DNA of 39,399 nt. Origin: a virus. A program made the position numbers and the translations under genes. Shown here in pieces: positions 8,002 to 30,505 of the stretch (position 1 is the stretch's first letter; every line of letters begins with the position of its first letter). The notes beneath the pieces were generated by a model, which saw nothing but the letters and a program-made list of their open reading frames with translations, searched no databases and was not told the DNA's origin. The stretch covers positions 1 through 39,399 of IMG/VR virus record IMGVR_UViG_3300024520_000198; one strand, written 5' to 3'.

Positions 8002-8194
8002 GACTAACGCACTACAAAGAATAGAATCTCATGAAAAGCTTTGCAGAATTATGCAAAAATTAACACATAAAAAAATTCATCAAATAGAAGAACGTATCAA
8101 ACGACTTGAAAAAATCATGATCAGTTGTGCGGGAGCTTTAATTGCTGCAATGGGTTTTTTAATATATACTTTATTAAGTCACATTCAATTTTAA
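7994..8194 (+). CDS. Small coiled-coil membrane protein, holin-accessory-like
   Basis: A 66-residue protein. Residues 1-45 are charged with heptad-like spacing (IHQIEERIKRLEKIM), and residues about 46-62 form one hydrophobic transmembrane helix. A soluble coiled coil followed by a single C-terminal helix resembles small phage proteins of the XhlA type, which act with holins. It overlaps the preceding virion gene by eight bases and is convergent with the minus-strand oxygenase gene, whose stop overlaps it by four bases. It could instead anchor a virion protein; the family call is tentative. Confidence 0.55.
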   Translation: MSKTNALQRIESHEKLCRIMQKLTHKKIHQIEERIKRLEKIMISCAGALIAAMGFLIYTLLSHIQF

Positions 8195-8712
8195 ATTAAA
8201 TCAAAATCAAATCCTACAATTCTTTTGGGAGTACTAATTGTATTAGGCTCTGTATGGTGAATTATAAATCTAGGTACAATTACAATATCCCCTTCTTTTG
8301 CTGGAGGTTTAAATAATACACTTTTATCTCTCTCATTATTCCAGGGTTGCAAGTAAATTGTAAGTGGATGATTTTTATGCATACTTAAATATAGAATAGC
8401 AGCATACCCAGCTGAACCATGATTGTGGGGGAGATGATGATCTCCTTTTTTGTAAGTCACTGACCAGGCATTAGCCAAAGAAATTTTAGAAGCATACTTG
8501 TCAGATATTAATTTAAACTCATCTCTAAATATATTTTGAAGTGGTAATCTAATATCAGCAGTATCTCTATTAGAGAAAAAATTTCTATTTCTAGTTTCAG
8601 GAAAACTTTTTAATGCTTTTTCCATTTCTTTCTTTTTTCTTTTAAAGTCTGGACATTCAATTTTAAAAGCTTCTATCTTAAATACAGGTTCTATATAATA
8701 TTTTATATCCAT
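8191..8712 (-). CDS. 2-oxoglutarate/Fe(II)-dependent oxygenase, copy 1
   Basis: A 173-residue protein with the core of a double-stranded beta-helix 2OG-Fe(II) oxygenase. The first iron-binding part is LPHNHGSAGY (H96, H98), followed by a strand AAILYLS. The distal ligand is in PRFIIHHTEPN (H152 or H153), and R164 in PKRIVGFDF is placed to bind 2-oxoglutarate. Such enzymes hydroxylate proteins, nucleic acids or small molecules using O2. The phage substrate is not visible. It is read with the upstream SNF2-like helicase gene (10-base overlap), the only long minus-strand pair in the first 22 kb. Confidence 0.75.
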   Translation of the reverse strand: MDIKYYIEPVFKIEAFKIECPDFKRKKKEMEKALKSFPETRNRNFFSNRDTADIRLPLQNIFRDEFKLISDKYASKISLANAWSVTYKKGDHHLPHNHGSAGYAAILYLSMHKNHPLTIYLQPWNNERDKSVLFKPPAKEGDIVIVPRFIIHHTEPNTISTPKRIVGFDFDLI

Positions 8713-10127
8713 TGTTTTAATTCTTCACCCATTATTTGAGTAGCTATATTTACTTTAGAACGTAAGCATTTTACAATCTTATGATCAATTGTATCTTCTG
8801 CCATGATATCAATATATGTCATTGATTTTAATTGTCCTATTCTGTCTATTCTAGCTTCTGACTGCATTCTTTTTTCTAGGTCGTAACCATTAGAATAATA
8901 TATCATAGTAGAAGCTCCTGTCAAAGTGATACCATATCCTCCTGTTTGTGGGGTTCCTACCAGGAATCTTACTGGAGAATCGGGGTCATTAATTTTTTTG
9001 ATTGCTTCTTGTCGGTCATCAGTTGAAGTATCTCCATAATAAGTCATTACTGAATTATTTCCATATTCTTTTTTAATAGCTTCAACTATTTTTTTTATAT
9101 CATATCTATAGTGGGCCCAAATGATAGCTTTGCCTTCCACTTCATCGAGTATATCCATAAGTTGATTAATACGATTATTTTTTATTTCTTGTATCTCTCC
9201 ATCATCAGATGTGAAATGACCACATGTAATTTGATGTAGCCTCATGAGTTGAGTAATTACAGTGGCTGTAGAAACCATTTTATTATTTAATACTGCAAGA
9301 GCTGTTTGTTTCATTTGTTTATAAACACGTTTTTGATCATCAGATAATTCTATGGTTCGCTTTATATATGTTTTAGGAGGTAAATCTAAACAATCATCTT
9401 TCAATACTCGATATGAAAAAGGTTTTATCTTATCTGATAGTTCAGCTAAATTTCTATAACCAACAACAATCTCAACTTGTCTACCATTAACTTGAATTTT
9501 TCTACATACAGCATATCGTGTTCTAAAAGAATAATAAGAACTTTGATCTAATAACCAGGGATCTAAAAATTGACATTGAGAAAATAAATCTAATGGTGAT
9601 TTAGTGACAGGTGAACCTGTAAGTATACGTCTGTACTTACAATATTTTCTTAAACCTAAAATATTTTTAGTTCTTTTAGCCGCAGGGTTTTTTATGGTAG
9701 TAGACTCATCAACTCCTATCAAAGCTTTATGACTCATTAAAAATTTTGTAGCAAATTGTAGACCTTTCTTGGTAGAGAAAGCTTCAACATTCATAAGTAA
9801 AATATGAAGTCGTGCTCCTGTTTCAAACATAGGCTTTAGGTCTTTTGCATTAGGATCAGTCCGCCAAAGACCAACTCTTTTCTCTATATATTCAGGCATA
9901 TGTTCAGGTATTTCAACATCATACCAGTTTTTATAGACACCTTTAGGCGCAATAATTAAAGCACTATCTATCTTGCCATTGTTATATAACAACGCAATAT
10001 TATCAATTAGTACTTTAGACTTACCAGTACCCATTTCCATGAAGTACGCGAAAACCTCTTTGTCCCAAGACATTTCAAGCGCTGTCTCTTGATGAGCAAA
10101 AGGCTTGCTTTTATATTTATAATGCAT
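8703..10127 (-). CDS. SNF2-like superfamily 2 DNA helicase/translocase
   Basis: A 474-residue protein with the ordered motifs of SF2 SNF2-like ATPases: AHQETAL (Q-like motif, about residue 11), Walker A in MEMGTGKSK (about 31-39), a DEST motif II (about 140), RRILTGSP motif III, and the C-terminal RecA lobe ending GYGITLTGA ... RIDRIGQ (motifs V and VI). It is complete, without accessory domains. Phage enzymes of this kind are used in replication, recombination or strand remodelling. It is transcribed away from the replication module from a divergent promoter and is the upstream partner of the oxygenase gene at 8191-8712. Confidence 0.88.
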   Translation of the reverse strand: MHYKYKSKPFAHQETALEMSWDKEVFAYFMEMGTGKSKVLIDNIALLYNNGKIDSALIIAPKGVYKNWYDVEIPEHMPEYIEKRVGLWRTDPNAKDLKPMFETGARLHILLMNVEAFSTKKGLQFATKFLMSHKALIGVDESTTIKNPAAKRTKNILGLRKYCKYRRILTGSPVTKSPLDLFSQCQFLDPWLLDQSSYYSFRTRYAVCRKIQVNGRQVEIVVGYRNLAELSDKIKPFSYRVLKDDCLDLPPKTYIKRTIELSDDQKRVYKQMKQTALAVLNNKMVSTATVITQLMRLHQITCGHFTSDDGEIQEIKNNRINQLMDILDEVEGKAIIWAHYRYDIKKIVEAIKKEYGNNSVMTYYGDTSTDDRQEAIKKINDPDSPVRFLVGTPQTGGYGITLTGASTMIYYSNGYDLEKRMQSEARIDRIGQLKSMTYIDIMAEDTIDHKIVKCLRSKVNIATQIMGEELKQWI

Positions 10128-10146
10128 AATATGTTTCTACTTTCTA

Positions 10147-10182
10147 TTGAAAGCGTATATATTACATGTTATAAAATGTCAA
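10147..10182. promoter_or_regulatory. Divergent, interleaved promoter pair
   Basis: On the plus strand TTGAAA (10147-10152) and TATAAA (10170-10175) are 17 bases apart and point to the gene at 10199. On the minus strand TTGACA (10182-10177) and TATACG (10159-10154) are also 17 apart and point to the helicase gene. Each -35 box lies beyond the other's -10 box, so the two promoters occupy almost the same 36 bases and should compete for polymerase. Boxes were found by eye. Confidence 0.5.
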
Positions 10183-10198
10183 GAAGGAAATATTATTA

Positions 10199-10570
10199 AT
10201 GCAACTTACAAGTCAGACTAAAACAACTGACACTAAACCTATCGTATATGTAATTCAAGATATTCCTGGTTCAAAAATGGGTACTCCTAAAATAAATATT
10301 ATTGGAGCTACACAATTCGGCAAGTTAAAAGTACTACTACCTGAAAATTCACAGATTATATTAAGTCCAAATTATGTCGTGACCACACTTCGGACAGCTT
10401 TAAAAGACTATACAATAAGAGATTATTTACTACTTACAGGCGATCCTGCCATAATTGGGGTAGCATGTTCTTTAGTATCGGACCTAACTAATGGAAAATA
10501 CAACCTATTAAAATGGGATAAACAGGAAAGGAAATATTATCCAGTAGAAATAAATTTAAAAGGGAGTTGA
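10199..10570 (+). CDS. Conserved phage protein of unknown function
   Basis: A 123-residue protein with mixed alpha/beta composition and no cysteine cluster or catalytic motif. It contains IVYVIQDIPGSKMGTPKI and a later LLTGDPAIIGVACSLVSDL helix. It opens the replication module directly after the divergent promoter, with AAGGAA about ten bases before its ATG. Its stop codon is embedded in the -35 box of the next promoter. I associate similar genes with marine phage replication regions but know no function for them. Confidence 0.6.
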   Translation: MQLTSQTKTTDTKPIVYVIQDIPGSKMGTPKINIIGATQFGKLKVLLPENSQIILSPNYVVTTLRTALKDYTIRDYLLLTGDPAIIGVACSLVSDLTNGKYNLLKWDKQERKYYPVEINLKGS

Positions 10571-10595
10571 CAATTAATATAATAACCTATATATA
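10567..10595 (+). promoter_or_regulatory. Promoter TTGACA-N17-TATATA
   Basis: A consensus TTGACA box is followed after 17 bases by TATATA. It overlaps the stop of the preceding gene and lies about 17 bases before the next ATG. It should drive the two-gene unit that ends at the terminator near 11.9 kb. Confidence 0.6.
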
Positions 10596-10611
10596 GAAAG
10601 ATAAGAAAGTT

Positions 10612-11163
10612 ATGACAAAAATAGATTTTGAAAACGATAGAATGCAATCTGTGGAACAAATAGATTCCGCTAAAAGATTGTCAGATAAAATTTTAGAACT
10701 TAAAGATTTAGAAGATGAGATTCAAAACGCTGAAGAATCTTTAAAAAAATTAAAAGCAAAAGCAAACGTCGTATCGCATACTGAAATTCCTGCGATGATG
10801 GATGAAATGCAAATTACAAAATTAAAGCTGAAAGATGGTGAGTCCGTAGAAGTTAAAAAAATATATGGCGCCTCTATTCCTAAAGATCAACAGGATGCAG
10901 CTTTTAACTGGCTTCGTAGCAATGGCTTAGGGGATATCATTAAAAACGATATCACTGTTACCTTTGGTAAAGGCGAAGACAACAAGGCAGCATCATATGC
11001 TGAACTTGCAAAGGGTCAAGGATTCGAACCGGTCCAGAAAATTGGGGTGAATCCTATGACTCTCAAAGCATTGGTCAGGGAACGATTACAATCTGGACAA
11101 GATGTTCCGGCTGACCTTTTTAAACCGTTTGAGGGTAACCAAACAAAAATAACGCGACGATAA
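10612..11163 (+). CDS. Coiled-coil replication-module protein
   Basis: A 183-residue protein. Residues about 18-55 form a charged coiled coil (LKDLEDEIQNAEESLKKLK). A compact C-terminal domain follows with SIPKDQQDAAFNWLRSNGLG, ITVTFGKGED and PMTLKALVRERLQSG. I recognise this architecture as common beside single-strand-binding genes in podovirus-like phages, but the family has no role I can name with confidence. It shares a promoter and terminator with the next gene, which suggests joint action on ssDNA or recombination intermediates. A possible relation to Gam-like nuclease inhibitors was considered but is not supported by a motif. Confidence 0.6.
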   Translation: MTKIDFENDRMQSVEQIDSAKRLSDKILELKDLEDEIQNAEESLKKLKAKANVVSHTEIPAMMDEMQITKLKLKDGESVEVKKIYGASIPKDQQDAAFNWLRSNGLGDIIKNDITVTFGKGEDNKAASYAELAKGQGFEPVQKIGVNPMTLKALVRERLQSGQDVPADLFKPFEGNQTKITRR

Positions 11164-11178
11164 AAGGAGAAACGCGAA

Positions 11179-11904
11179 ATGAGTAACGAGAAACAAGTAG
11201 CAACAAGAAAGGAAGCTGGCCTTCCATCTGCGTCATTATTTGAAGCAGATGCACAGCTAGGTTTTGAGAACGTGAAGACAGATAGTCTGGCTCCACCAAT
11301 CTTAAAACTTTTACAAAACGGATCGGCGGAAGCACAAAAGCGTAATCAAAATTACGTAGAAGGTGCTGAACCTGGTATGTTTTTAAATACTGTCACGAAA
11401 CAGTTATATAATGGAGATAAAGGAATACAGGTTATTCCTTGTTATTATAGACTGGAGTACCAAGAATGGGCAGATTATGGAACGGGTTCTGGAAGACCTG
11501 AACAAATCTATCCTGACACCTCAGATGTTTTAGACAAAACAACTAAGGGTCCTGATGGTAAAGATAGATTACAGAATGGAAACTACATCTTAACTGTAGG
11601 TCAACACTTTGTGATTATCTTGGGACCAAATGGTTCTGAAACTGCAATGATATCTATGAGTTCTTCTCAAGGTAAAATTAGCAGAAAATGGAACTCCATG
11701 ATGAAGTCTATTAATTTAGATGGTAAGAATGGGTCTTATACTCCACCTTCGTTTAGCCATATTTATAAATTATCTTCTGTATTAAATACAGGTAAAGGTA
11801 ATCAATGGTACGGCTACGCGGTTGAAAAAGTTGGACAATTAGAAGATGCGAAGATGTATGAACGAGCGAAAAAGTTCTACACTAGCTTCGCTAAAAGAGG
11901 CTAA
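11179..11904 (+). CDS. Putative phage ssDNA-binding protein
   Basis: A 241-residue protein rich in beta-prone segments with several aromatic residues (CYYRLEYQEW, KWNSMMKSI, HIYKLSS), consistent with an OB-like nucleic-acid-binding fold. It is encoded just before a strong terminator and upstream of primase, helicase and polymerase, the usual place for a phage ssDNA-binding protein. It lacks the acidic DDIPF-type tail of bacterial SSB and ends SFAKRG. A good Shine-Dalgarno (AAAGGAG) precedes the ATG. The functional call rests on context and general resemblance, not on a definitive motif. Confidence 0.5.
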   Translation: MSNEKQVATRKEAGLPSASLFEADAQLGFENVKTDSLAPPILKLLQNGSAEAQKRNQNYVEGAEPGMFLNTVTKQLYNGDKGIQVIPCYYRLEYQEWADYGTGSGRPEQIYPDTSDVLDKTTKGPDGKDRLQNGNYILTVGQHFVIILGPNGSETAMISMSSSQGKISRKWNSMMKSINLDGKNGSYTPPSFSHIYKLSSVLNTGKGNQWYGYAVEKVGQLEDAKMYERAKKFYTSFAKRG

Positions 11905-11912
11905 TATTTCTG

Positions 11913-11942
11913 ATGGGCGCCAGAGATGGCGCCCATTTTTTA
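11913..11942 (+). terminator. Rho-independent terminator
   Basis: ATGGGCGCC and its complement GGCGCCCAT form a perfect nine-base stem around the loop AGAGAT, followed directly by a run of six T. It lies nine bases after the stop of the putative ssDNA-binding protein gene. It is the clearest intrinsic terminator in the window and should let that gene be expressed at a higher level than the primase behind it. Confidence 0.9.
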
Positions 11943-11943
11943 G

Positions 11944-13491
11944 GTGGACATGACAGAACAAGAATTAGATAAATTTATAGATATATTTTCAGGCTCATTT
12001 AGTGCCTATGGACAAACTCGAAAAACACAAGAGTTTGATGACCGAGGTAAAAACAAAACTAAATCTTTCATAATTAAAAAAGCTCCAAGTATACAAATGT
12101 TCAGAGACCATTTGGAAGGCACTGATCCTGCTCTCGGTATTATTCCAATCAATGAAGATAACAAATGTAGATGGGCGTGTATTGATATTGATTTATATAC
12201 AGGCTTTGATCACCAAGCACTTATTAAAAAAATAAAAGAAAACAAATTTCCCTTAACTGTATGCAGATCAAAATCTGGAGGAGCACATGTCTTTTTATTT
12301 ACCAGTGAATTTACACCAGCAGTTTTATTAAGAAACAAACTAAAAGAAATGGCTGCAATCTTAGGTTATGCTAATGCAGAAATATTTCCCAAACAAAATA
12401 AAGTTGATATGCAAAAAGGAGGAACAGGTAGTTTCTTAAATCTTCCTTACCATAATGCAAAGATGACAATACGTTATGCTATTAAAGAAGATGGATCAGC
12501 TATGACTTTGAATGAATTTTTTAACGAATATGATAAAGTAAAACTCTCAGCGATTCAACTAGGAAATTTAAAATTAAAAGAAGAAAAAGTTGATGACTTA
12601 TTAAAAGGTGCCTCTCCTTGTTTAGTTGCATTAGCGGAACAAGGTATACCGAATGGTCAAAGAAATAATGCCATGTATAATTTTGGCGTTTATGTAAAGA
12701 AAAGATTTCCTGGGTCCTGGTCATTAGAAATATTTAAATATAATGATACATACTGTAAACCACCACTAGATAAAAAAGAAATAGACACAATAATTAAATC
12801 TATTGATGGAAAAGATTATCAATATAAATGTAAAGATGAACCTATTGCTTCATTTTGTAATGCTAAAAAATGTGTGCTTCAAGAATTTGGTATTGGTGAT
12901 GATGAAGTTCCAGGTGTAACAGAAATAAAAGAGATACAAAAATATGATTCAGATCCACCTTTATACTATGTGACTATTAATGATGAACAAGTTGAAGTTG
13001 ACTCATCAGAATTACATGAACCAGATAAATTTTCTTTAAAATGTTTAGAACAAATTGATCAAGCGATGCCACCAGTTGGCAAACTAATTTGGAGAAAGGC
13101 AATAAACAAATTACTTAAAGATACCATTCCTATTGAAGCTCCACAGTCTACAAAAATTGATACACAACTAACAGAATTATTAGGGGATTATATAAATAAA
13201 ATACCTGGTAAGGACTGGAAAGATATTCTTCGAGGTCTATCTTATACAGAAGATGGAGTAAGTTATTTTAAATTCAAAGACTTCTGGAAATTTATAATTA
13301 GATCAAAGTCATGGCCTGATAAACAATATCCAAAACAAAAAACTGCAAGACTCTTAGAAGTATTATTTGAAGCCGAAGAAGTACCAGGGAAAATAAATAA
13401 TAAGAGCGTGAGATATATGTCTCTTAAAACACTTAAATTAGATAAACCGAATACAAGAAAAGATAAAATGAAGGAGCCTCCGTTTGCATAG
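11944..13491 (+). CDS. Archaeo-eukaryotic-type primase with PriCT-like domain
   Basis: A 515-residue protein with an N-terminal AEP/PrimPol-type catalytic domain. The metal-binding pair is in ACIDIDL (D81, D83), followed by CRSKSGGAHVFLF (about 107-119), AEIFPKQ (145-151) and LNLPYHN. Residues about 225-295 (NGQRNNAMYNFGVYVKKRF ... DKKEIDTIIKSI) resemble a PriCT-1 domain, and then a Cys cluster (YQYKC ... SFCNAKKC) may bind zinc. The C-terminal 200 residues are unassigned. It should make primers for the polymerase encoded at 15.9 kb. The start is uncertain: GTG at 11944 follows the terminator T-run directly, and ATG at 11950 has AGGTGG only two bases upstream. It overlaps the helicase gene by eight bases. 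Confidence 0.82.
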   Translation: MDMTEQELDKFIDIFSGSFSAYGQTRKTQEFDDRGKNKTKSFIIKKAPSIQMFRDHLEGTDPALGIIPINEDNKCRWACIDIDLYTGFDHQALIKKIKENKFPLTVCRSKSGGAHVFLFTSEFTPAVLLRNKLKEMAAILGYANAEIFPKQNKVDMQKGGTGSFLNLPYHNAKMTIRYAIKEDGSAMTLNEFFNEYDKVKLSAIQLGNLKLKEEKVDDLLKGASPCLVALAEQGIPNGQRNNAMYNFGVYVKKRFPGSWSLEIFKYNDTYCKPPLDKKEIDTIIKSIDGKDYQYKCKDEPIASFCNAKKCVLQEFGIGDDEVPGVTEIKEIQKYDSDPPLYYVTINDEQVEVDSSELHEPDKFSLKCLEQIDQAMPPVGKLIWRKAINKLLKDTIPIEAPQSTKIDTQLTELLGDYINKIPGKDWKDILRGLSYTEDGVSYFKFKDFWKFIIRSKSWPDKQYPKQKTARLLEVLFEAEEVPGKINNKSVRYMSLKTLKLDKPNTRKDKMKEPPFA

Positions 13492-15192: not shown

Positions 15193-15857
15193 AAATACCG
15201 TATGTAGATTATAATCAATTTTATCCTAAAAATATTCCTGAATGTGAAGAAACATGGGCGCCTAAGGAATTAAAACTAATTAGTAAGTTAAACAAATTTG
15301 TTAAAGGTAAAGTTGAAGGAAACTATTGTTATAAACACGGTACTGTTCTTGAAGAAAAAACTAAACCTGTAAAAGAAAGATCTTGGAAAAGACAATATTT
15401 AAGAGAAGCTGTAGCAGGATGTAAACAAGGTTTAGAAATAGGATTTAATGCAGGACATAGCTCAGCTATTATTTTAATGGCTAATGATCAAATAATTTTA
15501 AACTCAATTGATATCTGTCGATACAAATACACTGTTAACACAGCTAGGTTTATGTATAAGTATTGGAAAGGTAGATTTGGTTTTTATGCAGGGTCTAGCC
15601 AAGCAGTAATAAAAAAATATGATTTTCCAAATTTAGATTTTATCCACGTTGATGGTGGTCATGGTGTTGCCGATTTTTATTTTGATATTGATTTTTGTGA
15701 AAGAAATTTAAAGCCTGGTGGGAAAGTAGTAATAGATGATGCTTATCTACCAGACTATATGAAATATATTGGTTATAAATTACAACAAAAAGTTTTTGCT
15801 TTACCTAAAGATGTAAGAAAATCTTCCGGAGAAAATTTATTGTTAATAAAATTATGA
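15189..15857 (+). CDS. SAM-dependent methyltransferase-like protein (Methyltransf_24 type)
   Basis: A 222-residue class I methyltransferase-like protein. Motif I is GLEIGFNAGHSSAII (about residues 78-92), an acidic end of strand 2 is in NSIDICRYK, and later NLDFIHVDGGHGV (about 150-162) and LKPGGKVVIDDAY form the carboxyl half typical of Methyltransf_24 proteins. The VDGGH motif is characteristic of that family, whose members often act on small molecules or sugars. It sits between DUF3310 and DNA polymerase with four-base overlaps, which is an unusual place for a sugar enzyme. Substrate unknown. Confidence 0.75.
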   Translation: MKIPYVDYNQFYPKNIPECEETWAPKELKLISKLNKFVKGKVEGNYCYKHGTVLEEKTKPVKERSWKRQYLREAVAGCKQGLEIGFNAGHSSAIILMANDQIILNSIDICRYKYTVNTARFMYKYWKGRFGFYAGSSQAVIKKYDFPNLDFIHVDGGHGVADFYFDIDFCERNLKPGGKVVIDDAYLPDYMKYIGYKLQQKVFALPKDVRKSSGENLLLIKL

Positions 15858-17716
15858 TGTTTGAAGCACAAAAAGAATGGAGTTGCCCAGAAGAATTTCC
15901 TGATTTAAGTCATGCAAAATATATTGCTATTGACTTAGAAACTAAAGACCCGGAACTTAAGTCTAAAGGTTCAGGAGCTATACAAGGAGAGGGTGAAATT
16001 GTAGGTATCGCTGTAGCTGTTGAAGGATGGTCAGGTTATTATCCTATTGCGCATGAAGGCGGAGGAAATTTAGATAAAAGAATTGTACTCGAATGGTTTA
16101 AAAAAGTTTGTGCTACAGATGCAATAAAAATATTTCATAATGCTATGTATGATGTTTGCTGGATTAAAGCATACGGCATACCTGTAAATGGACATATTAT
16201 GGATACTATGGTTATGGCCTCTTTAATTGATGAGAATAGATTATGGTACACCCTTAACAGTATATCATTTGATTATTTAGGAGAAGTTAAAGATGAAAAA
16301 ACATTAACTGAAGCAGCAGAGTCATGGGGAGTAGATCCTAAAAAAGAATTATATAAATTACCAGCAATGTATGTAGGTAACTATGCAGAGAAAGATGCAG
16401 TATTAACTTTAGAATTATTTAAACATTTATCCAGAGAACTTAGAAAACAAAACTTAACTGAAGTGTTTGATTTAGAAACACAATTATTTCCATGTTTAAT
16501 TGAAATGAAATTTAAAGGCGTTCGGGTTGATATCGAATGCGCTCATAAATTAAAAGAACAGCTGTCCACACAAGAAAAACAATTATTATTAGACATAAAA
16601 AAAGAAACACAATTAGATTGTCAAATATGGGCTGCAAGATCGATTGCCAAAGTTTTCGACAAATTGCAACTGCCTTATACCAGAACTTTAAAAACTCAGT
16701 CACCATCATTTACTAAAAACTTTCTTTCCACTCATGAACATCCTTTAGTTAAGAAGATAGCAAAAGCTCGAGAAATAAACAAGGCTCATACAACTTTTAT
16801 TGATACAATTATAAAACATCAACATAAAGGTAGAATCCATGCTGATATAAATCCAATACGATCTGATCAAGGAGGGACGGTAACAGGTAGATTTAGTTAT
16901 TCAAATCCAAACTTACAACAAATCCCTGCTAGAAATAAAGATCTAGGACCAATGATTAGATCATTATTTATTCCAGAAGAAAATCATAAATGGGGTTGTT
17001 TTGATTACTCACAACAAGAACCAAGACTTGTTGTACACTATGCAGCTTCAACTGAACCTATTTGCTTTGATGAATCTGTAACCAATATTGTAGATCGATT
17101 TAATAAGAACGATGTAGACTTCCATCAAACCGTAGCTGATATGGCTAACATATCTAGAACTCAAGCCAAAACAATTAATCTAGGATTGTTTTATGGAATG
17201 GGTAAAGCAAAACTACAAGCAGAACTTGGACTAAACAAAAGAGAAGATGCAGAAGATTTATTTAATCAGTATCATCAAAACGTTCCTTTTGTTAAAGACT
17301 TAATGAATTACACATCTAGACAAGCACAAACATCAGGATCCATTGGAACTTTATTAGGACGTAGATGTAGATTTACTAAATGGGAACCAAATCAATTTGG
17401 TATGCATAAACCTATGGGTTTTGAAGAAGCTGAAAGAACCTATGGAAGAGGCAGAATTAGAAGAGCGTTTACTTACAAAGCTTTAAATAAATTAATACAA
17501 GGATCAGCAGCCGACATGACAAAAAAAGCTATGTTAGATTTATATAAAGAAGGAGTTGTTCCTCATATACAGATTCATGATGAACTAGATATTTCTATTG
17601 AGTCAGATGAGAAAGCTAAAAAAATAATCGAAATTATGGAAAATGCCGTTAAGCTAAAAGTACCTAATAAAGTTGATTATGAATCAGGGAAAACGTGGGG
17701 AGATATTTATGATTAA
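15854..17716 (+). CDS. Family A DNA polymerase with 3'-5' exonuclease domain
   Basis: A 620-residue replicative polymerase. The exonuclease domain has AIDLETKDP (D27, E29), FHNAMYDVCWI (D100) and NYAEKDAVLTL (Y177, D181), so the DEDDy set looks complete. The polymerase domain has TGRFSYSNPNLQQIP, motif A FDYSQQEPRLVVHY (D384), motif B RTQAKTINLGLFYGMG and motif C IQIHDELDI (H575, D576, E577). The length is somewhat under T7 gp5 (704), with no 5'-3' exonuclease domain. The start is the first ATG of an ATGATG, in an ATGA overlap with the methyltransferase gene. Its 3' end overlaps the next oxygenase gene by eight bases. Confidence 0.95.
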   Translation: MMFEAQKEWSCPEEFPDLSHAKYIAIDLETKDPELKSKGSGAIQGEGEIVGIAVAVEGWSGYYPIAHEGGGNLDKRIVLEWFKKVCATDAIKIFHNAMYDVCWIKAYGIPVNGHIMDTMVMASLIDENRLWYTLNSISFDYLGEVKDEKTLTEAAESWGVDPKKELYKLPAMYVGNYAEKDAVLTLELFKHLSRELRKQNLTEVFDLETQLFPCLIEMKFKGVRVDIECAHKLKEQLSTQEKQLLLDIKKETQLDCQIWAARSIAKVFDKLQLPYTRTLKTQSPSFTKNFLSTHEHPLVKKIAKAREINKAHTTFIDTIIKHQHKGRIHADINPIRSDQGGTVTGRFSYSNPNLQQIPARNKDLGPMIRSLFIPEENHKWGCFDYSQQEPRLVVHYAASTEPICFDESVTNIVDRFNKNDVDFHQTVADMANISRTQAKTINLGLFYGMGKAKLQAELGLNKREDAEDLFNQYHQNVPFVKDLMNYTSRQAQTSGSIGTLLGRRCRFTKWEPNQFGMHKPMGFEEAERTYGRGRIRRAFTYKALNKLIQGSAADMTKKAMLDLYKEGVVPHIQIHDELDISIESDEKAKKIIEIMENAVKLKVPNKVDYESGKTWGDIYD

Positions 17717-18230
17717 AACTCATGATAATTTTTTATCAAATGATATATCTCAATTAGCTTATAATATGGTGATACGATCTTTCTATAAAATAGGGTGGGA
17801 TGATAGTGCAGAGCCACAACATAAAGCTTATCAAAATTTATATAGTGATTATAGTTTTGAAGATGTAAAAAAATTAAAAATGTTAGGTCCTATATTGGAG
17901 AAAGTAAAACCTTACAAACTTAACATAGATAATTATAAAAACTGTGTTGTTAATTTAACAAAACCTTTAGATGTAAATTTTATTCATATACATCCAAATC
18001 AAGTAGTTGCTTTATATTACACAAATTTAACGTGGAATCCTGAGTGGGGAGGAGAGACTTTATTCTATGAAAAAAATAGAAAAGATATTCGTTTTTCCAA
18101 TGCTTATGTTCCTAACAGATTAGTCATTTTTGATGGTGGAATACCCCATACAATTAAGGCCCAAAATTTGATTGGACCTTCATATCGTTTTACGATAAGT
18201 TTCTTTTTTAATAGGAATATGGTAGGTTAA
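17709..18230 (+). CDS. 2-oxoglutarate/Fe(II)-dependent oxygenase, copy 2 (prolyl-hydroxylase-like)
   Basis: A 173-residue protein starting at an ATG that overlaps the polymerase stop by eight bases; a longer frame from 17673 would lie fully inside the polymerase gene. The oxygenase core is visible: FIHIHPNQVVALYYTN (H93, H95), WGGETLFY (E116), then VPNRLVIFDGGIPHTI (distal H147) and YRFTISFFF (R160 for 2-oxoglutarate). The GGETLF and PNRLVIFDG motifs are typical of P4H-like hydroxylases, and similar genes are frequent in marine phages. Target unknown; it is co-transcribed with DNA polymerase. Confidence 0.82.
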   Translation: MIKTHDNFLSNDISQLAYNMVIRSFYKIGWDDSAEPQHKAYQNLYSDYSFEDVKKLKMLGPILEKVKPYKLNIDNYKNCVVNLTKPLDVNFIHIHPNQVVALYYTNLTWNPEWGGETLFYEKNRKDIRFSNAYVPNRLVIFDGGIPHTIKAQNLIGPSYRFTISFFFNRNMVG

Positions 18231-18350: not shown

Positions 18351-19058
18351 ATGGCTTATCTGAACGCAAACATTCCTGCGACGTATGCGCAGGTAAGGAG
18401 AGAATATCTCTATGACCTTTCCGGACATGTGGGAGAAGCTGAAGACTGTGTCATCTTTGGGATGGCATCAATTTCAGGGAAAGCTATCCTCTTTCATGCA
18501 ATTATGGAAAATGGAGCGGTATTCTACCGTTTGCCAATCTCTGCATTTATACAAAGAGGATTTGATGTCAAAAAAGTTCCTAGGATGCGACTTGATGAGT
18601 TGGAGCTTTGGAATTCTTTTAGTTATTATCCTAGTATTCATACTTTTGATATCCTTTTAGGCCAATCAGGAAAATATATAGGAAAAGATAAGCAATGGTA
18701 TCACGGTACCTATCTTTTCACGGTTGACTGGGCTCACCCAGAGAGTAATATAGTAGATACGGATCATTCCGAAATACCGCACGAGCATAAGTGCGCACAC
18801 ATACTTGCCTTAAACAATGGTAATTATGCGGCTCAGCCAAACAATCGCCTTATATGGAGTATACCATCTTTAACAGTAAAAGATGAAGTTCCAGATTGGA
18901 AAGTACAAACTTCAGATTGGAGTGTTGAGGATACTAGTAAATGGAAAACAGAAGATACGGATAAGTACTTCTACGGAATTGAGGAAAAGGAAAAAAGTAC
19001 ATCCGAACTTTTACAAGAGGGTATGGATCTACAAATAAAAGAGGAAGAAAATGATTAA
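18351..19058 (+). CDS. Conserved phage protein of unknown function (235 aa)
   Basis: A 235-residue soluble protein. The first two thirds are mixed alpha/beta with many aromatic residues (WYHGTYLFTVDW) and several His residues (SEIPHEHKCAHI). The C-terminal third is acidic with repeated short Trp motifs (PDWKVQTSDWSVEDTSKWK), then a charged tail. I do not recognise a catalytic family. It heads a run of tiny overlapping genes, the next of which starts eight bases before its stop. A cluster of early or host-takeover genes is a reasonable reading of the context. Confidence 0.65.
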   Translation: MAYLNANIPATYAQVRREYLYDLSGHVGEAEDCVIFGMASISGKAILFHAIMENGAVFYRLPISAFIQRGFDVKKVPRMRLDELELWNSFSYYPSIHTFDILLGQSGKYIGKDKQWYHGTYLFTVDWAHPESNIVDTDHSEIPHEHKCAHILALNNGNYAAQPNNRLIWSIPSLTVKDEVPDWKVQTSDWSVEDTSKWKTEDTDKYFYGIEEKEKSTSELLQEGMDLQIKEEEND

Positions 19059-19846: not shown

Positions 19847-19848
19847 AA

Positions 19849-21834: not shown

Positions 21835-21837
21835 ACA

Positions 21838-22026: not shown

Positions 22027-22229
22027 AAATTATTATGATTCTAGGTACGGGAGTCCTTCTTAATTTTCCTATGGATGAAAGAGTTAAACCCGACTGTTTT
22101 AGTCAGGGTTATGCCATTATCCAAAAGATAGCAATCTATTATGGACCTGAGGACAGAGGCGCGGGTCAAGGTTGGGTTTTAAAAAATTCCCGTGTTCCTA
22201 TTGGAGTAGGAGGATGGTATTGCGAGTGA
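22023..22229 (+). CDS. Small exported-type protein (68 aa)
   Basis: A 68-residue protein with a hydrophobic N-terminus (IIMILGTGVLLNF) that could be a signal or anchor, then a Gly-rich, Trp-containing C-terminal half with two Cys. It starts in an ATGA overlap and its stop overlaps the start of the oxygenase gene. No family recognised. Confidence 0.45.
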   Translation: MKIIMILGTGVLLNFPMDERVKPDCFSQGYAIIQKIAIYYGPEDRGAGQGWVLKNSRVPIGVGGWYCE

Positions 22230-22834
22230 CCCCTATATTTACACAAGGTATTTACTTTGCAAGAAAGATAGATCTACCTCATAAAGATATTCTAGAAAGA
22301 GTTAAAAATTTAAAATGGAACAAAGTTATTCCTCAAACATCTAGTTATGACAGCAGACAATTAATAACAGAATCAAATCATATTCTAAGTATAATGCCTG
22401 GCGGAAACTCTTTAAAAAAAATTATAGAAAAACATGTAGCAGAAGCTATAGATAACTTTGGTTATGATAGTAAATTTAAAACAGCAACTAGTTGGGCTAA
22501 TTGTATTAAGCCTAATAATATAAGTGAATTTCATAATCACAAAAACTTTTGGTTAAGTGCTGTGTATTATCCACATGGTGCACAAGAAGATAACTTTTCT
22601 ATTATATTCAAGAAACATGACCATGACTATTTTGATATTAGAATTAAAAGAAATAATTCATACAACAACAATATGTGTACTGTAAATGTAGAACAAGGAG
22701 ATCTTGTAATATTCCCTTCATATACCCTGCATAAAATAGGCTATAATTCTACTAAAAATGACCGGTATTCTTTAGCTTTTAATTTTTTACCCTCAGGACT
22801 CATTGGGTGGAAAGATGGCGAAATTAAGTTCTAG
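22220..22834 (+). CDS. 2-oxoglutarate/Fe(II)-dependent oxygenase, copy 3
   Basis: A roughly 204-residue oxygenase of the 2OG-FeII_Oxy_5-like type. The first iron motif is SEFHNHKNFWLSAVYY (HxH), and the distal part is GDLVIFPSYTLHKIG with an Arg in DRYSLAFNF for 2-oxoglutarate. Start choice: the frame is open from 22172, but AGGAGG at 22208-22213 is ideally placed (six bases) for a TTG at 22220, and a GTG at 22226 overlaps the previous stop as GTGA; an ATG at 22214 is too close to the AGGAGG. It is convergent with the following minus-strand gene (four-base overlap). Substrate unknown. Confidence 0.75.
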   Translation: MRVTPIFTQGIYFARKIDLPHKDILERVKNLKWNKVIPQTSSYDSRQLITESNHILSIMPGGNSLKKIIEKHVAEAIDNFGYDSKFKTATSWANCIKPNNISEFHNHKNFWLSAVYYPHGAQEDNFSIIFKKHDHDYFDIRIKRNNSYNNNMCTVNVEQGDLVIFPSYTLHKIGYNSTKNDRYSLAFNFLPSGLIGWKDGEIKF

Positions 22835-23046: not shown

Positions 23047-23078
23047 TTGACAACCTTGTATATTTTGGGATAATATCC
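23047..23078 (+). promoter_or_regulatory. Promoter TTGACA-N16-GATAAT with overlapping palindrome
   Basis: TTGACA (23047-23052) and GATAAT (23069-23074) are 16 bases apart. The -10 box is inside the 11-base palindrome GGATAATATCC (23068-23078), and the octamer TATCCTAT overlaps it at 23074-23081. It drives the ribbon-helix-helix gene, so an autoregulatory operator is plausible. Confidence 0.65.
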
Positions 23079-23118
23079 TATATATAAAAACAAAACTATA
23101 AAAGAAAGGTTATATACA

Positions 23119-25790: not shown

Positions 25791-26454
25791 GCGATTCACT
25801 TATCCTAAATCGACCCGGTCTCTGGTAGATGATGAAAGACACTACGACATAGGTAATGAAAAATTGCCATCGGTCACCACGATTCTAGCAGCCACAGAGA
25901 GCGACGAGAAGCGAGAAGCTATAGCTCGATGGAAATTGAAAGTAGGCGAAACTAAGGCAGAGGAAATTAAGAATGTGGCAGCAAAAAGAGGGACCAGCAT
26001 GCATAGTTATTTAGAACACCACATTAATGGAAAAGGATTATTAGATTTAACTGAGACTGGAATCGAGGCCGAACGTATGGCCCAGGTAATTAAAGAGAAA
26101 GGTTTTCCAGAACTAGAAGAGATATGGGGTTCTGAATGTGTGTTATTTTATCCTGAATTATACGCAGGACAGACAGATTTATGCGGTATTTATCAAGGTC
26201 GCGAAAGTATAATAGATTTTAAACAATCCAACAAGCCAAAACGTGAAGAGTATATTGGGGACTACTACCTTCAGTGCGCTGCTTATGCCACTGCTCATGA
26301 CTATAATTTTAAGACTAACATCGAGCAAGTTGTCATTCTTATGTGTACCCCTGACTTATATTTTCAAAGATTCATTTTAAATGGGGCAAGATTTAGGCAA
26401 GCAAAGTGGGAGTGGCTAAATAAAGTTGGACAATATTATGGCAACAAAAAATGA
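25777..26454 (+). CDS. PD-(D/E)XK exonuclease, RecB/Cas4-like
   Basis: A 225-residue nuclease from ATG 25777; a frame extending to 25756 would add only residues inside the preceding gene. It shows KLPSVTTIL, a helix with RGTSMHSYLEHH (H76), YAGQTDLCG (D134), SIIDFKQSNK (D147, K149) and YYLQCAAYA (Q166), the ordered motifs of RecB-like PD-(D/E)XK exonucleases. Phages use such enzymes for recombination or host DNA degradation. It overlaps the HNH-like gene by 14 bases and the sulfotransferase gene by four. Confidence 0.85.
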   Translation: MKWNKRFTYPKSTRSLVDDERHYDIGNEKLPSVTTILAATESDEKREAIARWKLKVGETKAEEIKNVAAKRGTSMHSYLEHHINGKGLLDLTETGIEAERMAQVIKEKGFPELEEIWGSECVLFYPELYAGQTDLCGIYQGRESIIDFKQSNKPKREEYIGDYYLQCAAYATAHDYNFKTNIEQVVILMCTPDLYFQRFILNGARFRQAKWEWLNKVGQYYGNKK

Positions 26455-27155
26455 TTGCAACACCTGGTTTTGTTTTTATTCATATGTTTCGTACGGGAGG
26501 AACTTCCATTAATAAGTTTATTAATGGTAAAAAACTTGGCTACCATAGACCTAGAAGTTTAATACCAAAAGAATATACACATCTCCCTGTAGTCGGAAAT
26601 GTACGTGATCCCTTCGACTGGTATGCGGATGTTTATTTTCATGCTTTAAATTTCCTTTATCCTATGAAGACTCCAACCTTTCTTAACTCTCTATTAGATT
26701 TCAAACGATACAGTTTTAAAGAAAGTATCCGAAGACTAGTTGATACTAGCTGGATGACAGCCAAAGATAAAGAAAAAAGTATGGCTCATTTCCCTGAGGA
26801 TTATAACTGGAAGATTACTTTAACAGATAATTTAAGAAAGAAAGATTTTCAATCTTATTTAGATAGTGACATGGGCTATCTGAGTTGGTTATTTAATTAT
26901 ATGTATAGTGATAAGGGCAGTTTAAATGGAATGACCTATTGTCGATTAGAACATTTAGAAGAAGACTGGGCTTCCTTTTTAAGTTTAAAAGAAGGGATAT
27001 CTCTCCCTCACTTGAATGCTATGTCTGGTGTAAATGATATTGTGGGTAAAGTTAAAGAACCTAAACCACAAGATTGTATGAGTCTTTACGATGATGACTT
27101 GATTAAATTAATTATGAAAAAAGATAAACCTTACTTTGATTTTTTTGGAATATGA
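26451..27155 (+). CDS. Sulfotransferase-like protein
   Basis: A 234-residue protein with the two signature parts of PAPS-dependent sulfotransferases. The 5'-phosphosulfate loop is FVFIHMFRTGGTSINKFI (about residues 7-24), and the 3'-phosphate site is GNVRDPFDWYADVYF (about 49-63). The central part is divergent but of the expected length. Such enzymes transfer sulfate to sugars, lipids or tyrosines; marine phages sometimes carry them, possibly to decorate capsid or cell surface. It sits between nuclease and U32-like genes with ATGA overlaps on both sides. Confidence 0.75.
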   Translation: MIATPGFVFIHMFRTGGTSINKFINGKKLGYHRPRSLIPKEYTHLPVVGNVRDPFDWYADVYFHALNFLYPMKTPTFLNSLLDFKRYSFKESIRRLVDTSWMTAKDKEKSMAHFPEDYNWKITLTDNLRKKDFQSYLDSDMGYLSWLFNYMYSDKGSLNGMTYCRLEHLEEDWASFLSLKEGISLPHLNAMSGVNDIVGKVKEPKPQDCMSLYDDDLIKLIMKKDKPYFDFFGI

Positions 27156-27970
27156 AAATATCCTGTTCAGCTAGAAAACATCCAACCTATCACATTAGAG
27201 ATTGGATCGACTTTGAACGTACTCATGCAAAGATGCATAGTCAGTTTCAATTTGATTATAAGGATATTGATTATGCGTTTGGACAAGTCGAAGGCAAGAG
27301 TATGTTGTGGGGTGGACGACTCTTTGACGGCGAGAACCTCACGCGAGTAGATCTCTATTGGATGTATAATCATGGCATTGGACTCAAGATGACCTTGTCT
27401 ACAAAACTCTTTACTGAGATAGACTATAAAGAAAGTAAATCTTTTTTAAAATATTATCATCGAAAAGGAAATGCAGTCATTGTGGCTAATGATACTTTGG
27501 CCCAACGCATCCATGAAGAATTCCCTGACTACGAAATAGAAGCGAGTTGTATTCTGGACACTGTGAATACCAAGAGTCTAGAAAAACGCAGAGCTATGAA
27601 TTGTTATGACATCATTGTGTTGCCCATTCATATGAATGATGACTTTAAATTTTTAAAAAGTATTAAAGATAAAAAGCAAATAAGATTATTTCTTAATGCA
27701 GAATGTTCCTATACATGTCCTAGTAAAGTATGTTATGGTTCTACCTCAAGAATTAATTCAGGAAGATTAGAAAAGGATAAGTTTAAATGCAGTCATTACG
27801 ATTTGAAAATGCCCCGTACATTTTATAATGATAAGATTAATTGGAGCCAGTTCTATTTTAATAAAGCTAAGTTTGATGAACTGGGGTTTGATAAATATAA
27901 ACTCGTGCCACCTTGGGAGGCACAACAAAGAACTAAATTAATGTATAAGGAGAAAAGACTATGGGCCTAA
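27152..27970 (+). CDS. Peptidase U32-like Fe-S protein, possible hydroxylase
   Basis: A 272-residue protein whose central and C-terminal parts follow the U32 pattern: VIVANDTLAQRI (about 109-120), EIEASCILDTVN, CYDIIVLPIHMNDDFKFLKSI, then RLFLNAECSYTCPSKVCYG. Cysteines 185, 189, 194 and 213 are placed like the four Fe-S ligands of U32 proteins. Known U32 members (RlhA, TrhP, UbiU/UbiV) are involved in RNA or quinone hydroxylation rather than proteolysis. A radical-SAM CxxxCxxC is not present. It is coupled to sulfotransferase and oxygenase genes, suggesting one modification pathway. The family call is from pattern memory and should be checked. Confidence 0.55.
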   Translation: MKISCSARKHPTYHIRDWIDFERTHAKMHSQFQFDYKDIDYAFGQVEGKSMLWGGRLFDGENLTRVDLYWMYNHGIGLKMTLSTKLFTEIDYKESKSFLKYYHRKGNAVIVANDTLAQRIHEEFPDYEIEASCILDTVNTKSLEKRRAMNCYDIIVLPIHMNDDFKFLKSIKDKKQIRLFLNAECSYTCPSKVCYGSTSRINSGRLEKDKFKCSHYDLKMPRTFYNDKINWSQFYFNKAKFDELGFDKYKLVPPWEAQQRTKLMYKEKRLWA

Positions 27971-28620
27971 CCAATTGGGAATTAGATCAAAAGACTATTG
28001 GTCGTGTGGTCTGTGCTCCTCTAACACTCCCTGATGATGTATTTAGTTGGGTTAAAAAAGCATGTTGGGATGCAAAGAAGAAAGCTAACAAAGCTAATAA
28101 AAAACTCATTGGTCATATCAAAGAAGAGTATTTCATTACCGAGCCTAACATTGCACAAAGCTTCAAAGATTTTCTAGGAAACCATGGTTTAGCTCATAGA
28201 CTCTGTAGAGAACATATCGAAAGAATTGATATCTTATCTGCGCCCCGACCTTTCTTTTTACCTCAACTGTGGTGTAACTTTCAAAAACGATACGAGTTTA
28301 ATCCTCCTCATGATCATTCCGGTGTCTTTTCCTTTGTGATCTTTGTAAAAATTCCTTACGATATAAAGAAAGAAGAAGCCTGTTTTCCTGAGATTGTGAC
28401 CGAAGAAAAAGCCTGGGGTAAGACTAACTACGCATCTAAGTTCGCTTTCTTATATCTTAACACGGCAGGCGCGATTCAATGTGATGCATTACGAGTGGAT
28501 AAGAGTTATGAAGGGAAGATGATTATCTTTCCTGCTAAACAAGTCCATATGGTCTTTCCTTTTTATACTAGTAAAGACTATCGTATTACTGTGTCGGGTA
28601 ATATAAAATTTAACGTATGA
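27961..28620 (+). CDS. 2-oxoglutarate/Fe(II)-dependent oxygenase, copy 4
   Basis: A 219-residue protein with a 2OG-FeII_Oxy_5-like core. The first ligand motif is EFNPPHDHSGVFSFVIFV, with HDH supplying iron ligands, and the distal part is GKMIIFPAKQVHMVFPF with Arg in KDYRITVSGN. The long insert between them is larger than in the other copies. AAGGAG lies seven bases before the ATG, and the gene overlaps the U32-like gene by ten bases and the next oxygenase by four. Two oxygenases in tandem suggest sequential modification of one substrate. Confidence 0.75.
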   Translation: MGLTNWELDQKTIGRVVCAPLTLPDDVFSWVKKACWDAKKKANKANKKLIGHIKEEYFITEPNIAQSFKDFLGNHGLAHRLCREHIERIDILSAPRPFFLPQLWCNFQKRYEFNPPHDHSGVFSFVIFVKIPYDIKKEEACFPEIVTEEKAWGKTNYASKFAFLYLNTAGAIQCDALRVDKSYEGKMIIFPAKQVHMVFPFYTSKDYRITVSGNIKFNV

Positions 28621-29180
28621 AAGAAGAAAAATTTAAATTAGATTCCTTTATTGGTGGATGGTATATCCCGGAGAAAATCTGTGATGACCTGGTCCAATTC
28701 TTTGAGTCTAATAAAGAGAGACAAAAACCGGGACAGTTTGGTGACCTGAAAGTTGATCCTAAAATTAAGTCTAGTACTGATATGCCCTTACGTGGTGATG
28801 ATACTCTGGTGGATGCGTACAATCGACATCTACAAAAGTGTCTCGAACTTTATATGAAAAAATACCCTGAAGTGAACGACCTCTATGCAGGTTTTAGTTC
28901 TGCCTTAGAAGGCTATAGTATTCAACGTTATCTCCCTGGTGAAGGGTATAAGAAATGGCATTGCGAACGAGACAAAGCGTGCCCGCGTATGCTGGTGTTC
29001 ATGACCTACTTAAATACGGTTAAGAACGGAGGGACACAGTTTAAATATCAAAATCTCTCGGCGCCCGCTACGAAGGGACTAACCCTGATATGGCCCACTG
29101 ACTTCACGCATGTGCATCGGGGTCAAGTTGCTACAAAAACGAAGTACATCATCACCGGATGGTATAATTATTTCCGGTAG
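28617..29180 (+). CDS. 2-oxoglutarate/Fe(II)-dependent oxygenase, copy 5 (prolyl-hydroxylase-like)
   Basis: A 187-residue oxygenase with a clear P4H-like core. The motifs are YKKWHCERD (His with downstream acidic ligand), MLVFMTYLNTVKNGGTQFKY, then GLTLIWPTDFTHVHRGQV with the distal His, followed by Lys/Arg and YIITGWYNYF. It is complete, closing the coupled operon that begins at the methyltransferase gene. It is followed by a 236-base non-coding region with iteron-like repeats. The substrate could be a virion protein, a host protein or a nucleic acid base. Confidence 0.83.
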   Translation: MKEEKFKLDSFIGGWYIPEKICDDLVQFFESNKERQKPGQFGDLKVDPKIKSSTDMPLRGDDTLVDAYNRHLQKCLELYMKKYPEVNDLYAGFSSALEGYSIQRYLPGEGYKKWHCERDKACPRMLVFMTYLNTVKNGGTQFKYQNLSAPATKGLTLIWPTDFTHVHRGQVATKTKYIITGWYNYFR

Positions 29181-29209
29181 CGAGCAGCGAGAGGCTGGGA
29201 ACGGGGGAA

Positions 29210-29347
29210 AAATGTAGAAAGGACCCCGCGTCAAATATAGCTTATTTGAGGGTAAAACCCAGAAATGTAGAAATGTAGAACGAAATGTAGAAGCTAGAAG
29301 TGTTGGCATTCCTCACTAATAGTATGTTTTTCTACATTTCTACATTT
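29210..29347. repeat. Iteron-like AAATGTAGAA repeats with long inverted repeat
   Basis: The ten-mer AAATGTAGAA occurs at 29210, 29263, 29271 and 29283 on the plus strand and in inverted form at 29330 and 29338. The tandem pair at 29263-29280 and the inverted pair at 29330-29347 are perfect 18-base complements separated by 49 bases. A further partial copy (ATGTAGAA) is at 29401. The whole region 29181-29416 lacks a gene. Such arrays mark replication origins or multi-site regulator binding; a transcript could also fold into a long stem. Confidence 0.8.
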
Positions 29348-29416
29348 TTATTTTTCATATCAATACAGCGCTTATATAAATAGATATTTAGACCCTATAT
29401 ATGTAGAATAAAAAGT

Positions 29417-29710
29417 ATGAGATTCTTAAGAAGAAAAAAGACTAAATACAAGCACATTGTAATCAACAAGAAGAAGTATTACTTCTACAAAATTATGTGG
29501 CTTGACATCGTTGGAGACTCAGCGCATGCTACAGCTGATGAGTTCGATAAGTTCGAATGCTCTAAGATGGTCTCGTTTGCATATATATACAAACGTACTA
29601 AGAAATTCATTTGGACTTTTGCTAGCTATGACTCGAAGGATGAGGCATATAGTGATAGGAACGTCTTCCCTACAGGGTGCATAACTGGTATACAGAAGAT
29701 TGATGTTTAG
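29417..29710 (+). CDS. Conserved marine-phage protein, unknown function (97 aa)
   Basis: A 97-residue basic protein with KYYFYKIMWLDIVGDS near the start and SYDSKDEAYSDRNVFPTGCI near the end. I recognise this WxDIxGDS ... SDRNVFPxG layout from small proteins of marine phages, but have no function for it. It is the first gene after the iteron-like repeats. Upstream it has an AT-rich region with TATATA but no convincing -35 box. The following Lys-rich frame begins just at its stop. Confidence 0.6.
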   Translation: MRFLRRKKTKYKHIVINKKKYYFYKIMWLDIVGDSAHATADEFDKFECSKMVSFAYIYKRTKKFIWTFASYDSKDEAYSDRNVFPTGCITGIQKIDV

Positions 29711-29759
29711 TAATATAAGTTGGTTGGACGAGGTAAAGTACTTTATGGAAGGAGGAAAA

Positions 29760-29855
29760 ATGCCTAATAAGAAAAAGACTAATAAGAAGAAGATGAAGAA
29801 AAGAAAAATTAAAAAGAAGAAATCTAAAGCAAAGAAAAGAAAAAACAAAAGATAA
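29760..29855 (+). CDS. Extremely Lys/Arg-rich micro-protein (31 aa)
   Basis: A 31-residue protein that is mostly Lys and Arg with a few Asn, Thr and Ser. AAGGAGG lies four bases upstream of this ATG. The same frame is open from an ATG at 29703 (adding 19 residues, MFSNISWLDEVKYFMEGGK), which overlaps the preceding stop, so a 50-residue form is also possible. The charge points to nucleic-acid binding, for example DNA condensation. The long minus-strand frame opposite it is a by-product of the Lys codons. Confidence 0.5.
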   Translation: MPNKKKTNKKKMKKRKIKKKKSKAKKRKNKR

Positions 29856-29930
29856 TTGGTTGACGAGTTGTTTCCATTTCTTTTTTATCTGGCTCTAGTT
29901 ATTATTTTAATCTGGGCTACGTTAGAGTAA
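29856..29930 (+). CDS. 24-residue membrane micro-protein, TTG start
   Basis: Directly after the stop of the Lys-rich gene a TTG opens a short frame encoding VDELFPFLFYLALVIILIWA, a single hydrophobic helix. Its stop overlaps the ATG of the next oxygenase (TAATG). The coupling pattern is the main support, and translation is uncertain. Confidence 0.3.
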   Translation: MVDELFPFLFYLALVIILIWATLE

Positions 29931-30505
29931 TGTTTTATACTGATAATTTTATTAGAGATAAGAACCTTTTAGAAGAGATTCAGAATGAAGATCTTTGGAA
30001 AAAGTTTGCCCCAGCAAATTATAATTGGTGGAATGGCAAAGGTAGACCTAGAAATATTTTTGAATTTATTATTGAAAATGTTTGGAAACATTATGGGCTG
30101 GTAGGAAAGGTTGCTGGCTTTGAATATTGGTCCAATCTATCTCCCCCTGGAGTTGGGATGGATTGGCATAATGATAAAGATGAGGCCGAGTGTAAATTTA
30201 ATAATAATATTGTTAGACCTACACTTGGTATGGTTTATTGGGTTGGCATAAAAGATTTGGAAGGTGGCTATCTGGATGTCAGATTAAATAATAAGATTGA
30301 AAGAATTAAACCAAAGTCAAATCGTTTGGTGGTGTTTAATACAGGTGAGCCTCATAGAGTCACCAAAGTTATATCTGGTTATCGTCGTGCTCTCTTGTGT
30401 AATCCTTGGAAAGTTAAGCCCTTAACATTTAAAAAGGGTGATCATGTGAATGCAAATTTTAATCGTGTGTTAGCGCCGGCTTGGGTAATACCGGAGCGTC
30501 GATAA
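29930..30505 (+). CDS. 2-oxoglutarate/Fe(II)-dependent oxygenase, copy 6
   Basis: A 191-residue oxygenase with the clearest ligand set of all: GMDWHNDKDE (HxD), LGMVYWVGIKDLEGGYLDV, then PKSNRLVVFNTGEPHRV (distal His) and YRRALLCNPW (Arg for 2-oxoglutarate). It resembles P4H-type hydroxylases common in marine phages. Its 3' end overlaps the minus-strand terminase small subunit by 47 bases, so the two genes are convergent. Substrate unknown. Confidence 0.82.
   Translation: MFYTDNFIRDKNLLEEIQNEDLWKKFAPANYNWWNGKGRPRNIFEFIIENVWKHYGLVGKVAGFEYWSNLSPPGVGMDWHNDKDEAECKFNNNIVRPTLGMVYWVGIKDLEGGYLDVRLNNKIERIKPKSNRLVVFNTGEPHRVTKVISGYRRALLCNPWKVKPLTFKKGDHVNANFNRVLAPAWVIPERR

Follow-up and report, generated by a model that had tools for sequence, protein, structure and literature searches.

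Six genes of the 2OG-Fe(II) oxygenase superfamily in a pelagiphage-like fragment, four of them with a candidate three-histidine metal site

Six oxygenase-fold genes in one window

The stretch of DNA analysed here, referred to as the window, is a linear IMG/VR virus record of 39,399 bases (IMGVR_UViG_3300024520_000198; G000). It encodes six proteins of the 2-oxoglutarate (2OG)-Fe(II) oxygenase superfamily, which are called 2OG-A to 2OG-F. Three of these match the Pfam family PF13759 (2OG-FeII_Oxy_5) and phrog_81: 2OG-A (8191..8712, minus strand; E 7e-6 and 5e-24, respectively), 2OG-C (22220..22834, plus strand; 1e-17 and 3e-29) and 2OG-D (27961..28620, plus strand; 8e-8 and 7e-23). The other three match PF13640 (2OG-FeII_Oxy_3), together with phrog_274 for 2OG-B (17709..18230, plus strand; E 1e-4 and 3e-14) and phrog_61 for 2OG-E (28617..29180, plus strand; 2e-7 and 3e-39) and 2OG-F (29930..30505, plus strand; 5e-7 and 7e-8).

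The Pfam cut-off, which is 27 bits for both families, is exceeded by 2OG-C (64.5 bits), 2OG-D (33.0), 2OG-E (32.1) and 2OG-F (30.9). 2OG-B is below it at 23.6 bits and 2OG-A is just below it at 26.7 bits by hmmscan, rising to 28.6 bits with neighbouring stretches included. PHROGs 81, 274 and 61 support all six genes, with E-values from 7e-8 to 3e-39. In addition, iterated profiles seeded with each of the six recovered all six and no other open reading frame of the window; a seventh window oxygenase was sought by profile searches of these frames and none emerged. An initial annotation had placed six such genes at these coordinates, and this is upheld by the family matches for all and by structural models for two, with the strand of 2OG-A corrected to minus. 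This gene is translationally coupled to the upstream SNF2-like helicase gene, whose stop codon overlaps its start codon, and the plus strand there is rich in stops. 2OG-C starts with a TTG positioned six bases past an AGGAGG, and there is an alternative in-frame ATG at 22214.

The double-stranded beta-helix core of the 2OG-oxygenase fold was found by model in 2OG-B and 2OG-C and by profile in the other four. At fold level, therefore, the initial annotation also survives the check that it had itself proposed, namely a search for profiles or models lacking this core. The AlphaFold model of 2OG-B (mean predicted local distance difference test score, pLDDT, 84.7) matches the prolyl hydroxylases PHD2 and Pseudomonas putida P4H (4j25, 4iw3) in Foldseek, at ~13–18% identity to such enzymes. 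The model of 2OG-C (mean pLDDT 74.4) matches 2rg4 and 3bvc, which are its best two, and fungal alpha-ketoglutarate oxygenases. The nearest prolyl hydroxylases are 3itq and 5hv0 for 2OG-E, and the PKHD type (3dkq, PiuC) for 2OG-F. As profiles and models are concordant, chance motif matches are ruled out as the source of the six calls, and all six proteins are members of the superfamily at fold level.

Both phrog_274 and several phage records (S-MbCM6, P-RSM6 and others) carry the label "DNA endonuclease V". This assignment was rejected for 2OG-B, as its model is prolyl-hydroxylase-like and there is no nuclease in the best 50 Foldseek matches listed. Judged by this predicted structure, the label looks wrong.

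Pairwise identity among the six is 11–24%, and in a tree each has closer relatives among the genes of other phages than among the other five. Recent tandem duplication is ruled out by these identities and tree positions, as the initial annotation had maintained. Close viral relatives of 2OG-C were searched for and none were found.

H-x-H and H-x-D/E motifs

The canonical H-x-D/E...H facial triad is present in two of the six only, 2OG-E (H115-x-E117...H167) and 2OG-F (H80-x-D82...H142). The other four have H-x-H...H in its place: H96-x-H98...H153 in 2OG-A, H93-x-H95...H147 in 2OG-B, H105-x-H107...H171 in 2OG-C and H117-x-H119...H196 in 2OG-D. Thus, the His/acidic motif that had been read in every gene is confined to those at 28617-29180 and 29930-30505. 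All six do retain a distal His and, at the position of the 2OG carboxylate, a C-terminal Arg or Lys (R164, R160, R182, R208, K176 and R153, from 2OG-A to 2OG-F), as had likewise been claimed for each gene.

The H-x-H motif extends well beyond the window. Across ~325 homologues from phages and viral contigs, which were chosen without regard to motif and include near-identical contigs, the second motif position is occupied by D in 141 proteins, by H in 127 and by E in 50, with nearly nothing else. Furthermore, when the H-x-H and H-x-D profiles are aligned by hhalign, the second His of the former falls on the Asp of the latter. Together, the census and this placement argue that H-x-H is not a misalignment. 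The invariant His columns of a 25-sequence alignment (A1) are no independent evidence, as its members were picked for H-x-H. The C-terminal Arg or Lys is kept in 113 of the 127 H-x-H proteins (93 R, 20 K).

Motif classes track the tree, with 5 changes required versus a mean of 81 when labels are shuffled. The tree contains a single H-x-H clade, which comprises 89 sequences and has a support of 0.945, and two H-x-H cases fall outside it. One of these, 2OG-B with its relative L094, is nested among H-x-D proteins, with a support of 0.42 locally and of 0.91 for the surrounding group of 32. Among the bacterial proteins encoded in loci retrieved with PF13759, ~40 have H-x-H and 9 have H-x-D, in a sample of genomes that were reached through the H-x-E family and not through an H-x-H search. 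In the bacterial E-type proteins, H-x-E is paired with Lys in 33 of 33. The closest solved H-x-H relatives are 2rg4 and 3bvc (profile E 1e-16 and 3e-14), uncharacterised PF13759 proteins of marine alphaproteobacteria. Both carry H-I-H at the motif position, although they are only ~14% identical to 2OG-C. The prolyl hydroxylase P4H differs from 2OG-B at this site, as it has the canonical H-x-D. The metal site of 2OG-A, B, C and D is probably made up of three His.

Lineage, insertion sites and gene loads

The DNA polymerase A gene of the window (15854..17716, plus strand) is a backbone gene that served to place the phage. The encoded PolA is 62% identical to that of 023Pt_psg01 and 59% identical to that of Pelagibacter phage HTVC027P, and the gene order primase, helicase, PolA, exonuclease, TerS, TerL is common to the window and these two genomes. 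By PolA similarity and common gene order, the window is part of the genome of a relative of HTVC023P-type pelagiphages. As the genomes of 023Pt_psg01 and HTVC027P are 57–61 kb, it is probably about two thirds of a complete phage genome. Two IMG/VR contigs from one sample (3300024518) are identical to portions of the window over the compared genes, and no close DNA relative was found among isolated phages.

Related genomes show where the oxygenase genes have entered. 2OG-B overlaps the polA 3' end directly, with the phrog_3704 gene (labelled ferredoxin; 18351..19058, plus strand; E 4e-74) on the other side as the right flank of the insertion. The phrog_3704 gene comes 6–142 bases after polA in 41 related contigs, where the 2OG-B site has no occupant; among the contigs examined, 2OG-B is between these genes only in L004, which is identical to the window. 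2OG-A is on the 3' side of the SNF2-like DNA helicase gene, another backbone gene (8703..10127, minus strand; phrog_62, E 5e-120), and no 2OG-A match was seen beside the SNF2 gene in nine relatives. The accessory interval from exo to TerS is bordered on the right by the small terminase subunit gene (TerS; 30459..30941, minus strand; phrog_51, E 3e-12), with which 2OG-F is convergent. Here, 2OG-E and 2OG-F are present in one of the five relatives spanning the interval. In contig L101, which belongs to the same lineage, 2OG-D, E and F occur in window order and are 65–75% identical, and flanking genes are mostly 86–93% identical to those of the window; the three oxygenase genes are more diverged than their neighbours. 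The gene-free sites and this divergence argue that the oxygenase genes are accessory to a conserved backbone; each would have been acquired separately.

2OG-D and 2OG-E overlap by 4 bases and therefore share an operon. The six genes had been assigned to different operons, which does not hold for this pair. The associated idea that each acts at a different infection stage is unsupported; two share an operon and one overlaps the polA end. Directly upstream of 2OG-D, and overlapping it, is an uncharacterised gene (27152..27970, plus strand) whose 272-amino-acid protein has no match in Pfam, PHROGs, phages or the PDB. This protein is 93% identical in L101, where the next gene, 2OG-D, is 65% identical. 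The upstream neighbour at 26451..27155 (plus strand) encodes a protein with a P-loop-like N-terminus and no Pfam, PHROG or structure match; by eye only, its N-terminal FIHMFRTGGTS... and a VRDP stretch further on are reminiscent of sulfotransferases. A function for the oxygenases was sought from these two neighbours and dropped, as neither has a family or structure match. At the left end of the window, a truncated gene (2-406) matches phrog_1574, to which no function is assigned.

The number of such genes was counted by merging the matches of four families in phages that matched the queries, so that counts show occurrence and not an average. The window has six, versus three each in HTVC027P, HTVC023P and 023Pt_psg01, whereas HTVC008M has 19, Mosig 11, P-SSM2 23 and Sf-FS3 22. 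P-RSM6 has 19, nine of which are within 22.3 kb, and contig G006 has six in 8.7 kb. Overall, the large marine myoviruses counted have 7–23, with at most nine in 22 kb. Iterated profiles differ slightly from these values, giving four in HTVC023P and 023Pt_psg01. In the literature, 24 such genes are reported for cyanophage S-SCSM1 (PMC9602691) and numerous 2OG genes for 14 of 16 cyanophages (PMC3037559). For the HTVC023P lineage itself, the available text of Wittmers et al. 2022 (PMC9599517) describes eight nonorthologous 2OG families, frequently close together in the genome; that text does not discuss the iron motif. The view that one or two per phage genome is the familiar state is contradicted by these numbers, and genome counts and literature show that having six is not exceptional. 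For a phage of the window's size, six in 22 kb is a high density, yet it is no new phenomenon.

The window thus resembles HTVC023P-type pelagiphages in lineage and in having several nonorthologous, frequently clustered genes of the superfamily, and differs from the three reference genomes in having twice as many. It also resembles T4-like cyanophages and pelagimyophages, which have large divergent sets from PHROGs 81, 61 and 274 with H-x-H, H-x-D and H-x-E side by side. Unlike the window, these are much larger myovirus genomes, and their homologues of the six are mostly <45% identical. In HTVC027P, gp72 (L262:2093-2599) and gp74 (3164-3754), annotated as hypothetical, are PF13759 members flanking the annotated gp73, so this cultured phage has three 2OG genes in a row and not one.

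Proposed chemistry and substrates

The H-x-H chemistry is the most interesting point of the set. 2OG-E and 2OG-F would be ordinary Fe(II)/2-oxoglutarate hydroxylases. In 2OG-A, B, C and D, the metal would be held by three His and the Arg would bind the 2-oxo acid, with oxidation of a substrate. The chances that 2-oxoglutarate is the co-substrate of these four are about even. A broader proposal is more tentative: the four, along with ~39% of the sampled marine-phage "2OG-Fe(II) oxygenase" genes, could encode natural three-His iron enzymes that still use 2-oxoglutarate, maybe with more than one origin from H-x-D ancestors. If this is true, then their metal centre is the one that abolished P4H activity when engineered. 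Labelling all of these proteins as 2OG-Fe(II) hydroxylases hides the large share that has no carboxylate iron ligand. H-x-H enzymes active with 2OG would show the fold working with three His; if they do not use 2OG, inferences on phage control of 2-oxoglutarate need revising.

The likeliest substrates would be proteins of the host or virion. Among bacterial homologues of the H-x-H group, each of the seven long PF13759 frames tested encodes a fusion of TPR and oxygenase, and an eighth protein, of the E-type, gave no match in the TPR test. Of 33 bacterial loci of the H-x-E family, 17 have a TPR gene immediately before the oxygenase gene, as found by homology searches. TPR domains bind proteins and peptides. 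P. putida P4H, which is among the nearest solved structures to the 2OG-B model, has also been crystallised with EF-Tu. The 2OG-E family profile matches bacterial P4H (E 6e-6), making it prolyl/lysyl-hydroxylase-like, and the 2OG-F family profile matches PKHD hydroxylases (E 8e-10), making it PKHD/PiuC-like. Protein hydroxylation is favoured because of these TPR fusions and neighbours in bacteria and because the nearest solved folds include protein hydroxylases. The initial annotation had named virion, host or nucleic-acid targets, which sequence cannot tell apart; the bacterial homologues point to proteins, and the bacterial TPR link suggests a first substrate class. No substrate of marine-phage 2OG genes is reported in the cited literature, and a protein substrate, of host or virion, is rated here as an even chance.

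Taken as a whole, the explanation preferred here is a pelagiphage relative with six accessory oxygenase-fold genes, the chemistry proposed above and protein substrates, to which we assign a probability of roughly 0.55. Several points weigh against it. The fold of 2OG-A, D, E and F comes from profiles, the phage proteins have no TPR, and since the TPR link is drawn from bacterial homologues the phage substrates may differ. About 14 H-x-H proteins have no aligned Arg or Lys, and no experimental work on any of these proteins was found. Human P4H engineered to H-x-H (D414H) is inactive, and cysteine dioxygenase, the three-His model for this mutant, works without 2OG (PMC2767507). More generally, 2OG is not a co-substrate of the known three-His dioxygenases (PMC2767507; PMC4019311, a review of three-His enzymes).

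These enzymes are the basis of the strongest alternative, in which the four H-x-H proteins keep the fold and either have chemistry like that of three-His dioxygenases needing no 2-oxoglutarate or bind another ligand. Consistent with this, no characterised member of the family was found in the open-access literature searched. Nor did this literature yield anything on natural 2OG oxygenases with H-x-H or three His, a negative that does not prove their absence. However, most H-x-H proteins retain the C-terminal Arg or Lys with which canonical members bind 2OG, and the 2OG-B and 2OG-C models are nearest to 2OG oxygenases, not cupin dioxygenases, among the matches listed. This alternative is considered rather unlikely.

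Less probable is that at least one of the six modifies nucleic acid, giving modified virion-DNA bases or taking part in DNA or RNA repair. 2OG-B and 2OG-A overlap polA and the SNF2 helicase gene, respectively, both among replication genes, and a role in DNA repair has been put forward for the 2OG proteins of cyanophages (cited in PMC3037559). The 2OG-F profile also matches TET-like dioxygenases, though very weakly (E 0.1-0.15). However, Pfam assigns none of the six to an AlkB or TET/JBP family, protein hydroxylases give the best matches by structure and by profile, and a position near replication genes arises by chance when accessory genes enter operons. Least probable is that the enzymes chiefly drain 2-oxoglutarate and shift host nitrogen and carbon metabolism, with individual substrates secondary, as proposed for cyanophages rich in such genes (PMC3037559): that proposal rests on NtcA, a cyanobacterial regulator, and a simple drain needs no six divergent families side by side, four of them without the canonical site.

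Two further observations were made on related genes. A two-gene unit, with a TPR protein encoded directly upstream of an H-x-E oxygenase, occurs in Prochlorococcus, Gammaproteobacteria and other marine bacteria (bacterial loci L206, L209, L211-L215, L217, L220, L223, L224 and others). In addition, the phrog_2954 "ferrochelatase" genes of marine phages, which are reported partners of 2OG genes, have no ferrochelatase match in Pfam at E 0.1, and their profile matches neither the PDB nor the 2OG-E family. Examples are L265:4439-5095 (023Pt_psg01 URG13120) and L263:735-1370 (S-RSM4 SRSM4_132), aligned in A5. In these genes H-x-D is invariant and there is an H-W-R distal to it, and for one of them PhyH and 2OG-FeII_Oxy_2 give weak matches; they may be further 2OG-type oxygenases.

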